IMG/VR virus record: IMGVR_UViG_3300020172_001416
Location: 1-64,000 of that record
Source of the DNA: a virus
Direction: 5' to 3' (one strand)
DNA length: 64,000 nucleotides
Both the position numbers and the translations under genes were made by a program. Position 1 is the first letter of the stretch; every line of letters starts with the position of its first letter. Positions 1,217-24,981 of this stretch are shown piece by piece. The notes beneath the pieces are model-generated. The model did not search any database. It saw only the letters and a program-made list of their open reading frames with translations, and was not told where the DNA came from.

Positions 1217-1245
1217 TTGACAAACAAGCTCACCTTATGTATATT
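1217..1245 (+). promoter_or_regulatory. consensus-type sigma70 promoter for orphan RNA
   Basis: TTGACA 1217-1222, a 17-nt spacer and TATATT 1240-1245, followed by TTAAGG. Transcription would start near 1252. There is no open reading frame before the terminator at 1445-1473, so the transcript is a short RNA. Confidence 0.72.
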
Positions 1246-1251
1246 TAAGGT

Positions 1252-1473
1252 GTTGAGTGATTGAAAGGTGAAGGGAAGTAGTTGCGGGACTATCCGGGGT
1301 TGGATTGGTGTATACCGCCCCCGCTCCTTTTGAACCCTCGTTGTGAGATGCCACCGTAACGGCACAGGGGAAGTTTCCGACGAGATGAGCGTCAAATGAA
1401 GAGATAAACTTGGTTGAGGATGACAATCAAGATGATAGATAGGTTCCTCCCTACCCCAATGGGAGGATTTTTT
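1252..1473 (+). ncRNA. orphan structured non-coding RNA of about 220 nt
   Basis: This segment fills most of a gene-free stretch (1142-1541). It has a consensus promoter immediately upstream and an intrinsic terminator at its end. ATG codons inside it are followed within a few codons by stops. Local helices are visible: GCGG near 1284 with CCGC near 1315, enclosing ATCC/GGAT; CTCGT near 1338 with ACGAG near 1381, enclosing TGCC/GGCA. The middle part faintly resembles the P9-P10 region of bacterial RNase P RNA, but I cannot find the universally conserved RNase P core elements, so no family is assigned. The 5' boundary is inferred from the promoter. Confidence 0.6.
1445..1473 (+). terminator. 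intrinsic terminator of the orphan RNA
   Basis: Stem TCCTCCC (1445-1451) with GGGAGGA (1461-1467), nine-base loop, then six T residues (1468-1473). Confidence 0.85.
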
Positions 1474-13568: not shown

Positions 13569-14585
13569 ATGATTCAATACGCTGATGTAATCGTAGATTT
13601 ACAAGCAGGTGATACGGGAAAGGGTAAAGTTGCTCACGCACTTGCCAACAATTATGACCTGATGATTCGGTATAACGGTGGAGCAAATGCAGGTCATACC
13701 GTATACCACAATGGACAAAAAGTCGTCACACATCAAGTTCCGATTGGTGTACTGTTTGGTATTCCAAGTATTATTGGACTAGGGTGTGTTGTTAATATTC
13801 CAAAATTAATTGATGAGGTTCGTCAACTAAAATCTCAAGGTATTTATACTGACGGATTGATAATGGTTGACAAACGTGCACATGTCGTATTTGGTTATCA
13901 CATAGAGGAAGATGGTCTTGATTTGAAGATTGGTACAACTCGTCAAGGTATCGGCCCCGCATATCGTGACAAGTATGCACGTAAAGGAACTCGTATAGGT
14001 GACATTAATACATCAATGTACAACGATTTTAGAGTAGTTGACATTTATGATGTACTATATGTGAATCGGGTACCCCGTCGTATTCTCTGTGAAGGAGCTC
14101 AAGGATTTCAGATTGACATCGATTGGGGCGATTATCCTTATGTTACAAGTTCTCATTGTACGGTGGGTTCCGCAATATTAAATGGGATTCAACCACAAAA
14201 ACTTCGTAAAGTCATCGGAATTATGAAGGCATATGAAACATATTCTGGATTTAAGACTACGTTCCAAGACGAGAATGATACCGACCTTCAACGGATTCAG
14301 GAAGTTGGTGGTGAATTCGGTGCCACCACGGGACGTAAGCGTAAGGTTCGGTGGTTAAATTTAGACGGTGTTATCAAAGCAATTAACATCAACGGCGTTA
14401 CTGAGCTTATTATCAATAAGCTGGATATAATGGATGAAGTCGGTGTATTTAAAATGGTTAAAAACGGCAATTTGTGTAAATATGAAACTATGGAAAAGTT
14501 TAAAGCCGAAGTGGAAAGTACTATATATTTGCATACTACGTCGGTACAAAAGATTTTATGGTCTATGACTCCGAACGGAATCTGA
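13569..14585 (+). CDS. short adenylosuccinate synthetase homologue (PurA/PurZ type)
   Basis: 338 residues, versus about 430 for bacterial PurA. Conserved blocks are the P-loop-like GDTGKGK (14-20; PurA has GDEGKGK), NGGANAGHTV, TTRQGIGPAYRDKYAR, CEGAQGFQIDIDWGDYPYVTSS, GIMKAYETYSG and GEFGATTGRKRKVRWLN. The C-terminal nucleotide-binding part of PurA is missing. Phage PurZ enzymes have this shorter length and make the 2-aminoadenine precursor from dGMP. The Glu-to-Thr change and truncation point that way, but the Asp is kept, so PurA activity is not excluded. Expression is probably from the promoter at 13007. Confidence 0.85.
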   Translation: MIQYADVIVDLQAGDTGKGKVAHALANNYDLMIRYNGGANAGHTVYHNGQKVVTHQVPIGVLFGIPSIIGLGCVVNIPKLIDEVRQLKSQGIYTDGLIMVDKRAHVVFGYHIEEDGLDLKIGTTRQGIGPAYRDKYARKGTRIGDINTSMYNDFRVVDIYDVLYVNRVPRRILCEGAQGFQIDIDWGDYPYVTSSHCTVGSAILNGIQPQKLRKVIGIMKAYETYSGFKTTFQDENDTDLQRIQEVGGEFGATTGRKRKVRWLNLDGVIKAININGVTELIINKLDIMDEVGVFKMVKNGNLCKYETMEKFKAEVESTIYLHTTSVQKILWSMTPNGI

Positions 14586-16537: not shown

Positions 16538-16984
16538 ATGGAGAAACCAACGAAATACGTAAAAGCAACGTTGACAAATAGTTGTGTCCCTGCGTGTCTC
16601 GCTATGGTCACAGGCAAAACTCTCCAACGAGTCATCAAAGAAATATACGAACATTGGGAAAATGAAGGTCGATATCAAGGCGTAGAAGATGGTATCGTTG
16701 ACCAGTACCTATCAAAAAATGGATATGCAATACAACGAATCAGTCACGAATACGAACCTAATAAGTTGTTAATTCCGAAGTGGCCCGTCAACCCATTCGC
16801 TCCAATTCACATAGTAGATGTATGGTCAAGCAATCCGCCTGGAATGCATGCAGTTGTGATGTTAAAAGACGGAACAGTATACGACCCATCTAATAGACGA
16901 ATTAAAGATATCTCAATGTATCAACGAGTGTTCGGCATAACAGGAATATGGAAGGTAACTGACAAAGTATTTGATGTAAAATAG
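16538..16984 (+). CDS. papain-like (C39-type) cysteine peptidase-like protein
   Basis: 148 residues. NSCVPACLAMVTG (about 14-26) gives a catalytic-type Cys at the start of a helix. GMHAVVMLKDGTVYDPS (about 107-123) supplies the His and Asp expected of C39/papain-fold peptidases. There is no transport domain or signal peptide. The role could be cleavage of a phage or host protein. Its stop codon shares a base with the first nucleotide of the tmRNA gene. Confidence 0.68.
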   Translation: MEKPTKYVKATLTNSCVPACLAMVTGKTLQRVIKEIYEHWENEGRYQGVEDGIVDQYLSKNGYAIQRISHEYEPNKLLIPKWPVNPFAPIHIVDVWSSNPPGMHAVVMLKDGTVYDPSNRRIKDISMYQRVFGITGIWKVTDKVFDVK

Positions 16985-17317
16985 GGCCTGACCGGTTTCG
17001 ACGGGATGTAGAGGCTTAAATCTTGTACCCAGTTTGGTAAGACTGGTAAAACAGACCGAAATTTTCAACTGGCAATCAATTAGCCCTCGCTGCGTAAGCA
17101 GCCTGACGAAGTAATCTGACCCACATAGGGTTACTATCGTTCATAGATGTGGTGTAGTGTTGGTGACGGCTGGTAACTAACATCAAACGGAACGTAGCCT
17201 AAGTCAACCTTACGTTTGTTCTTTGTCGAGAGGGGGACGAAAATATACAAAGAACTACGTACATAAAAGTTTAGGAAGAAGCAGTCTCGGACCAGGGTTC
17301 GACTCCCTGCAGGTCCA
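16984..17317 (+). ncRNA. ssrA: transfer-messenger RNA (tmRNA)
   Basis: The 5' end GGGCCTGACCGGTTTCGACG matches the conserved tmRNA start and pairs with 3' CAGGTCC, with G3.U70 alanine identity. The 3' end has T arm CAGGG-TTCGACT-CCCTG and discriminator A. A tag-reading frame ends in codons for N-Q-L-A-L-A-A then TAA (near 17076-17099), like the ALAA ending of bacterial ssrA tags; the resume codon is unclear. Pseudoknot-type helices follow. tmRNA rescues stalled ribosomes and tags nascent chains for proteolysis. No CCA is encoded. No SmpB gene is visible here, so host SmpB would be used. Confidence 0.93.
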
Positions 17318-17356
17318 CTCTAATAGTTACGAATCACAATTTTTTTGGAGTAGCCT

Positions 17357-23084: not shown

Positions 23085-23900
23085 ATGCAATATCAACGAA
23101 TTTGTCCTAGCTGTAACAAAATAGTATATTCTAATACTAAACGAGTAATTGATGAAGCTATAAAAAAAGGAAGATTATGTTTTCAATGCGCAAAAGTAAA
23201 ATATAATACAGAAGAAGAAAAAAGAATAGCTTCAAACAATCGCAGAACAAAATGTGTTAGTAAAAAAGTTGGAGTATTCACTAGAAATTGTCCAACGTGT
23301 GGTATTAGTATGAAATACTCTACCATATACGAAGTAAATCGGCATAACAAAAATGAGACAAAATGTGTATCCTGTGCAGCAAAAAATAAAAAGTTTTCCG
23401 AAGAACATAGAAAAAATTTATCAAAAGCAAATACAGGAAAACATCATTCGGAAGAAACACGAACCAAACTAAGTATCCTTAATAAAGGAAAAAAACTTTC
23501 TGAAGAAACAAAGAAAAAAATAGCAGAAAGCAATCGTGGTAAGTCTCATACAAATGAAGCTATACAAAAAATGCGCGTGTCTACATTAAACCGACTGGAA
23601 AAAACAATAGGACAAGTATCACCTAGATACAATCCCGAAGCTTGTAAAGCCATTGACGAATATGGTAGATTGTATGGTTATAATTTCCAACATGCAGAAA
23701 ATGGCGGAGAGTTCTATATTAAAGAACTTGGATACTGGGTTGACGGATACGATAAAGAACAAAATGTCGTGATTGAATATTACGAAAATTTTCATAATAG
23801 ACAAAAGAAAAAAGATTTACGTAGACAAAAAGAAATAGTAGAACATCTAAAATGTAACTTTATCATATTAAAGGACGGTTATGACATCACTACACGGTAA
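23085..23900 (+). CDS. homing endonuclease with zinc modules and NUMOD3 repeats
   Basis: 271 residues from ATG 23085 (GGAGAA upstream). Two zinc knuckle pairs (CPSC/CFQC and CPTC/CVSC) precede NUMOD3-type DNA-binding repeats (SEEHRKNLSKANTGKHHS, SEETRTKLSILNKGKKLS, SEETKKKIAESNRGKSHT). The C-terminal domain (GYWVDGYDKEQNVVIEYYE, then a Lys-rich helix) looks like a Vsr/PD-(D/E)XK nuclease. Codon use is more AT-rich than in neighbours, indicating insertion. Its last 20 bases overlap the start of the IMPDH-like gene. Confidence 0.83.
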   Translation: MQYQRICPSCNKIVYSNTKRVIDEAIKKGRLCFQCAKVKYNTEEEKRIASNNRRTKCVSKKVGVFTRNCPTCGISMKYSTIYEVNRHNKNETKCVSCAAKNKKFSEEHRKNLSKANTGKHHSEETRTKLSILNKGKKLSEETKKKIAESNRGKSHTNEAIQKMRVSTLNRLEKTIGQVSPRYNPEACKAIDEYGRLYGYNFQHAENGGEFYIKELGYWVDGYDKEQNVVIEYYENFHNRQKKKDLRRQKEIVEHLKCNFIILKDGYDITTR

Positions 23901-24981
23901 ACAAGCTCTCACCTACGACGATATCCAACTTATCCCTGCGTTTTCGGATATTGAATCTCGTCAGAATATTGACCTCACAACTAAACTAACAACTAATTAT
24001 AGTATTAGGGTTCCATTCGTCGCATCTCCTATGGACACGGTTTGTGATAGTGAAATGGCAATCGCAATGGCAGAACTAGGTGGAGTGGGTATCATTCACC
24101 GGTTTATGACGATTGAAGAACAAGGTGCACAAGTACATCGTGTAAAGATGGCTGTTGATGCCGGTATTGCGGTGACCTATTTTGCAAACATAGATAATAT
24201 GAGTGGTCTTGAAGAAATGGAGGCACAATATAGAAGAAGGCGGCAAGTTCCAATCGCCGCAGCAATCGGTGCAAACGGTGACTATTTTGAACGAGCATTT
24301 GAGTTGGTTACTAAGGGTGCGAATATTATCTTGATTGACGTAGCACACGGATATCACACGTTTGTTCGTGATGCGTTAATGAGACTAAAAAAAGAACTTC
24401 CGTCTAACGTTGATATTATCGCAGGAAATGTTGCTACTGGTAAGGCAGCACTAGCACTTCAAGATTGGGGAGCCGACGCAGTTCGTGTTGGAATCGGCGG
24501 TGGCTCACTTTGTACGACTCGTATCAAGACGGGGTTCGGTGTTCCGAATGTAACATCACTTGAAGATTGCGCTCGTCAACTCACCGTTCCAGTTCTTGCC
24601 TGTGGCGGAATCAGAAATAGTGGTGACATTGCAAAGGCACTTGGTCTTGGAGCGAGTTCGGTGATTCTCGGGTCACTTCTAGCAGGAACAAAAGAAGCAC
24701 CGGGTGCTATAATTGAAAAGTCAACTGGACTATATAAGCGGTATCGTGGAGCCGCCTCGTTGGAAACGAAGAGTGTTCACGGGCAAGCAAAGAGAAATGT
24801 GGAAGGAGAATCAACTATCGTACCTTTCAAGGGTAAGGTAAAGTTCGTTGTGGATGGACTAACAGATGGATTACGTTCTGCTCTGTCGTATGCTGGAGCA
24901 CGAAATCTTGAAGAGTTTATCCCAGAATATGTGGTGGTCACCAATGCAGGTATGGCAGAGGCAAAACCACACTTACTATAA
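23881..24981 (+). CDS. IMP dehydrogenase/GMP reductase family protein, no CBS domains
   Basis: 366 residues. The TIM barrel begins [15 protein letters not shown], followed by [39 protein letters not shown] and the catalytic loop [19 protein letters not shown] with Cys near 211 (usual form GIGPGS). Phosphate-binding segments are [20 protein letters not shown] and YKRYRGAAS, where IMPDH has YRGMGS. There is no CBS insertion, so it is compact like GMP reductase. IMPDH makes XMP for guanine nucleotides; GMP reductase does the reverse. The choice cannot be settled by eye. It may serve the PurA/PurZ-type enzyme. Confidence 0.87.

Follow-up and report, generated by a model that had tools for sequence, protein, structure and literature searches.

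The window, a 64,000-nucleotide stretch within a 98,787-base viral record, contains a structured RNA at positions 1251-1473 of the plus strand. It belongs to a genuine RNA family that is apparently uncatalogued and whose pseudoknotted fold is well supported. Related phages keep this fold while its letters change, indicating that the RNA itself matters. The family, its conserved fold, its location within phage tRNA transcription units and its absence from Rfam are established here. An earlier note on this DNA had read the segment as a new phage RNA that has a promoter and a terminator of its own; that reading is supported and is strengthened by covariation, with expression being predicted. A literature search found no description of this RNA.

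Locus and homologue family

PHROGs matches to the large terminase, a portal protein and a baseplate wedge protein mark the source as a T4-like contractile-tailed phage. Among annotated phage records its terminase comes closest to those of Flavobacterium phage immuto and 'Microcystis' phage Mel-JY01, at only ~53% identity, and a terminase query found no relative among genome contigs. The RNA stretch is flanked by tRNA-Ser (1015-1098) and the exons of tRNA-Leu(UAA). Directly 3' of tRNA-Ser, positions 1099-1141 hold a second T-arm and an acceptor-like 3' half of a tRNA, an apparent tRNA remnant. An HNH endonuclease gene (1485-2165), missing in the related records L002 and L003, separates the RNA from tRNA-Leu; ahead of it lies a long inverted repeat, TTTTTGGTATACACAA...TTGTGTATACCAAAAA (1487-1532), one arm of which, GGTATACACAA, is found again in the tRNA-Leu 5' exon and is possibly the HNH target or a target remnant. 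The tRNA-Leu(UAA) gene itself is split by a group I intron at 2125-2404 (Rfam RF00028, 60.1 bits, 2150-2336), an arrangement that resembles the cyanobacterial one; L002 carries the same intron, and tRNA-Leu is intron-less in L003 and L105. Elsewhere in the window, two ORFs (13569-14585 and 23881-24981) look by eye like adenylosuccinate synthetase and IMP dehydrogenase and may serve purine metabolism in the phage.

The upstream side of the RNA carries a sigma-70-type promoter, TTGACA-17-TATATT, at 1217-1245 of the plus strand (TTGACA 1217-1222, 17-nt spacer, TATATT 1240-1245), which is near-consensus as the earlier note had read it (11/12 matches) and is conserved in L002 and L003. The RNA was delimited with covariance models R1/R3 and its homologues, its 5' end being placed by the promoter and by the point where homology begins with a group of sequences that directly follow tRNA-Lys. 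At the downstream side lies hairpin H7 (TCCTCCC/GGGAGGA, 1445-1451/1461-1467), which in the window's group is made terminator-like by a run of six T (1468-1473). It was not called by the terminator scan because its 9-nt loop exceeds the 8-nt limit of that scan. The claim of a strong terminator thus stands as far as the hairpin and T6 (1445-1473) are concerned, but more diverged relatives keep H7 without the T-run, so that H7 also belongs to the fold. As claimed, the segment is free of ORFs: no plus-strand ORF of at least 30 aa lies wholly inside it, one 33-aa TTG ORF only overlaps it from 1414, and the two minus-strand ORFs were called mechanical. Nor was a consistently conserved ORF found across the homologue alignment.

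Homologues were collected with an exact 37-mer, the neighbouring gene, a covariance model and degenerate patterns. They are present in 14 other viral records, giving in total 10 distinct full-length sequences and one internally deleted sequence; together with its place in a tRNA transcription unit, this removes the label 'orphan' that the RNA had been given. L002 is 97% identical to the window over 296 bases and L003 83%. A second, far more diverged group comprises L092/L095/L099, L096/L100/L102, L098, L101, L103, L106 and L093=L208. Model R3 scores all ten full-length members at 174-238 bits, nine of them being the sequences from which it was built. In L105 (614-736), ~100 nt of the RNA core is deleted between two GGTTG repeats, with promoter and H7 retained, which suggests either that L105 can do without the RNA or that the assembly is wrong at this point.

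No relative was found in the phage record collection, where one search returned only tRNA matches and another none, and the conserved core pattern gave a single hit, without model support, in a one-per-species genome collection of 84,980 species. Viral pattern hits L008, L094, L097, L104, L107-L110 and L222-L235 were likewise rejected for want of model support. As judged from these sequence searches, the family is restricted to this phage group and missing from the cultured phages searched.

Pseudoknotted fold and covariation

The fold is organized around a pseudoknot, PK1, and a long-range helix, PL. The 5' strand of PK1, GUUGCGG (1281-1287), covaries with 1354-1360, and its 7 bp occur across homologues as GUUGCGG:CCGUAAC, GUUAUGG:CCAUAAC and GUUGUAG:CUACAAC. 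PL joins GGACUAUC (1287-1294) to GAUAGGUUC (1438-1446) through 8-10 pairs with two double-sided changes, or ten pairs with three such changes if it is extended by one, and it shares two bases with H7. Hairpin H2 (1295-1299/1319-1323) varies as CGGGG/CCCCG, CGCGG/CCGCG and CGUGG/CCACG, and helix H4 (1337-1343/1378-1384) is CUCGUUG/CGACGAG in some members and CUUACG/CGUAAG in others. Above H4, hairpin H5 (1349-1364) presents the 3' strand of PK1 in its 8-nt loop; its stem is UGCC/GGCA, CACC/GGUG or UAUC/GAUA, with double-sided changes in three of four pairs. Between H5 and the 3' strand of H4 lies a purine-rich internal loop, CAGGGGAAGNNUC (1365-1377), opposite UGAGA (1344-1348), which is near-invariant in homologues. 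Hairpin H6 (1409-1431), with double-sided changes in four of its seven pairs, carries the loop AGGAUGR (1417-1423) and is flanked by GAYAAAC and GAURAUAG. We model these elements as a compact core of PK1, PL, H2 and H4/H5 on which the unpaired AGGAUGR loop, the CAGGGGAAG internal loop and the GAYAAAC/GAURAUAG joints would be displayed.

A second tertiary contact, PK2, is possible. Its candidate tail, YAUCY (1473-1477), is complementary to GGAUG of the H6 loop and occurs in 11 of 11 homologous tails, where window density predicts ~0.1 per tail. The evidence for PK2 is weaker than for the helices because the H6 loop is invariant, so that it consists of complementarity with wobble changes and not of covariation.

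The single sequence did not prove structure, since free folding of the window segment is not unusually stable (z = -0.20), and it is the comparison of homologues that supports the fold. Alignment A4, with nine members, supports PK1, PL, H2, H4, H5, H6 and H7: 96.4% of cells pair, against 38-56% in slid controls, and 14 pairs show double-sided changes, against 7.9 +/- 1.6 in shuffles, with none of 500 shuffles reaching 14; independent events are fewer than cells because two clades give most of the contrast. A model-fitted alignment to which the tenth member was added gave the same picture. A structure-blind scan of all column pairs, on an alignment hand-edited at H2 and H4, ranked the same helices top and yielded six covarying helices, PK1 and PL among them (each of at least 4 pairs and at least 2 double-sided changes); 60 column shuffles averaged 0.7 such helices and never gave more than 3. 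The ten full-length members thus describe a conserved structured RNA, with covariation above both shuffled and slid controls. The nested helices of the earlier note are only partly right: the supported core is built on the pseudoknot and the long-range helix, both of which compete with the local hairpin that the single sequence suggests and take the place of the nested helices.

That local hairpin (1279-1294), which RNAfold and RNAalifold predict, was rejected since it is mismatched in homologues and displaced by PK1 and PL. Several other pairings were discarded as well: the 5' leader/tail pairing UGUUG/CAACA is not kept in L092, L098, L106 and L208, the GAURA/YAUC pairing 3' of H6 meets A-C clashes in three sequences, and the pairing of UCCUC with the H6 loop is confined to one subclade. 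A box C/D-like reading of GAUGAUAG is not kept either.

Comparison with known RNA classes

Searches of the window and two homologues against Rfam gave no credible match to a known class at E<=10, 6S and RNase P included; the hits were at chance level or neighbouring tRNAs. RNase P had been pursued first because of a P9-like string and the tRNA context. That string, GAUGCCACCGUAACGGCACAGGGGAA, bears what we take to be a superficial likeness to the P9-P10 region of E. coli RNase P RNA. The RNase P models (RF00010 and relatives) did not match the window segment or the two homologues at E<=10, in a search that was positive in 11 of 14 control genomes. Whereas P4 hardly varies in RNase P, the candidate P4 strands (CRI/CRV) vary with compensation among homologues (GGACUAUC, GAGCUUAUC, GAAUUUACC). 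RNase P RNA was thus rejected both for its model scores and because the PL strands vary; the tRNA-maturation context and a short P9-like sequence are what the two RNAs have in common, and the conserved catalytic core was not found. The earlier note was right that this core is not recognisable, as no near-invariant P4 could be recognised, and its suggested RNase P likeness did not hold up. Its suggestion of a 6S-like or polymerase-binding RNA gained no support, the fold being a pseudoknotted multi-helix core.

tmRNA is also phage-encoded in these genomes, but the window RNA lacks both a tmRNA-model match and a tRNA-like domain. The window's own tmRNA (16984-17320; RF00023, 114.6 bits), whose reading frame ends in LALAA, was missed by ARAGORN, and a tmRNA is also encoded in G017, G021, G026, G071 and G072.

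By position, the best analogues are T4 RNA C and RNA D (species 1 and 2 RNAs), small stable RNAs of 139 and 119 nt that lie in the tRNA cluster of a T4-like myophage and are annotated without function. They differ from the window RNA in sequence and length, and R3, run with filters off on AF158101 69000-73500, found no match at either the RNA C or the RNA D gene. ROOL and GOLLD are structured phage and prophage RNAs, often near tRNA islands, with pseudoknots, kissing loops and unknown function (PMC12286853). They share location and pseudoknots with the window RNA, but not sequence, size or model: their Rfam models gave no match here, the window RNA at ~220 nt is much smaller (many GOLLD exceed 800 nt), and ROOL and GOLLD assemble into multimeric cages. 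As a structured, presumably expressed non-coding RNA inside a phage tRNA cluster, the window RNA falls within the loose kind of tRNA-island phage RNAs; T4 RNA C/D, GOLLD and ROOL are its closest kind, with no detectable homology.

Role within the tRNA array

Every full-length member lies inside a phage tRNA cluster, immediately 5' of tRNA-Leu(UAA). In the first group the RNA has its own TTGACA-17-TATATT promoter, and the window differs from L002 and L003 in the ~600-base HNH gene insertion between RNA and tRNA-Leu. Second-group members start at the tRNA-Lys 3' end, and 20-25 nt without a T-run separate them from tRNA-Leu. The promoter of tRNA-Lys in L091 would serve both tRNA-Lys and the RNA; the matching site in L101 is TTGACA-17-TAGATT. 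All five long RNA-bearing records scanned contain 21-30 tRNAs, and the window and four of these five encode a tmRNA, while the RNA is found in none of the seven tRNA-free relatives scanned. It is dispensable, as three relatives with 21-22 tRNAs (G034, G057 and G061) have no RNA and L105 lost the core.

We lean, if modestly, towards a stable, trans-acting pseudoknotted phage RNA of ~220 nt that would be produced together with the phage tRNAs and have a translation-related partner. In the window's group, transcription would start at the RNA's own promoter and would stop at H7 or continue past it. Sister-group transcription would start from the promoter upstream of tRNA-Lys, and tRNA maturation enzymes would cut the RNA out between tRNA-Lys and tRNA-Leu. 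The RNA would then most likely be a stable, trans-acting partner of the phage tRNA or translation equipment; ribosomes, tRNAs or a tRNA-targeting host enzyme may be named as examples, the target being a guess. As a broad direction, the tRNA-array context favours association with ribosomes or translation. More tentatively, and with clearly less confidence, we suggest a new functional class of phage RNA that is co-delivered with tRNAs, freed by tRNA processing and directed in trans at the host's translation apparatus or at a tRNA-targeting defence.

Besides the dispensability of the RNA, one feature counts against action in trans: tRNA-Leu follows the RNA so closely in L002, L003 and the second group that a further promoter would not fit between them, a position that suits a cis-acting leader too. 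The main rival, which we consider rather unlikely, is indeed that the RNA controls how the downstream tRNA-Leu(UAA) (and tRNA-Ala) is transcribed or processed, with H7 as a conditional terminator. The T-run of L003 ends only ~10 nt before tRNA-Leu, and tRNA-Leu in L002 and L003 must rely on read-through, since no promoter-like site was found between T-run and tRNA-Leu in either; the overlap between PL and H7 and the complementarity of the H6 loop to the tail ahead of tRNA-Leu in all homologues would also fit such a leader. However, H7 in the second group (seven distinct sequences) has no T-run, so termination is not the common function, and no switch is evident between H7 and the large PK1/PL core. 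The missing T-run and the size of this conserved core disfavour simple attenuation, and in the window the HNH gene parts the RNA from the tRNA.

Other readings are less probable still. The compact pseudoknotted fold between two tRNAs in the second group might point to a self-cleaving or otherwise catalytic RNA that aids release of the adjoining tRNAs, but this is improbable given that no Rfam ribozyme matches, that the window's group has no upstream tRNA after the promoter and that tRNAs are normally matured by host enzymes. We regard a highly reduced RNase P RNA as very improbable: the GAUGCCACCGUAACGGCACAGGGGAA likeness to P9-P10 of the E. coli sequence and the tRNA context speak for it, whereas the model searches and the changing would-be P4 strands speak against it, and the likeness includes the loop that is paired in PK1. 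It is just as doubtful that the RNA is a small mRNA for a 13-aa ORF starting at the ATG of the H6 loop. A MAPTMIDKFFSIK-like frame is open in several homologues, yet it has no Shine-Dalgarno spacing, L101 and the window's group have lost its stop, and where the ORF stretch changes, the opposite helix strand changes to match.

Small stable RNAs of tRNA clusters, such as T4 RNA C/D, GOLLD and ROOL, are documented without known function. The family described here is small and combines a well-supported pseudoknot fold with near-invariant loops and one fixed place, so that its role is accessible to mutational, pull-down and structural work, and it shows that large phage tRNA arrays can carry structured RNAs that are missing from Rfam.
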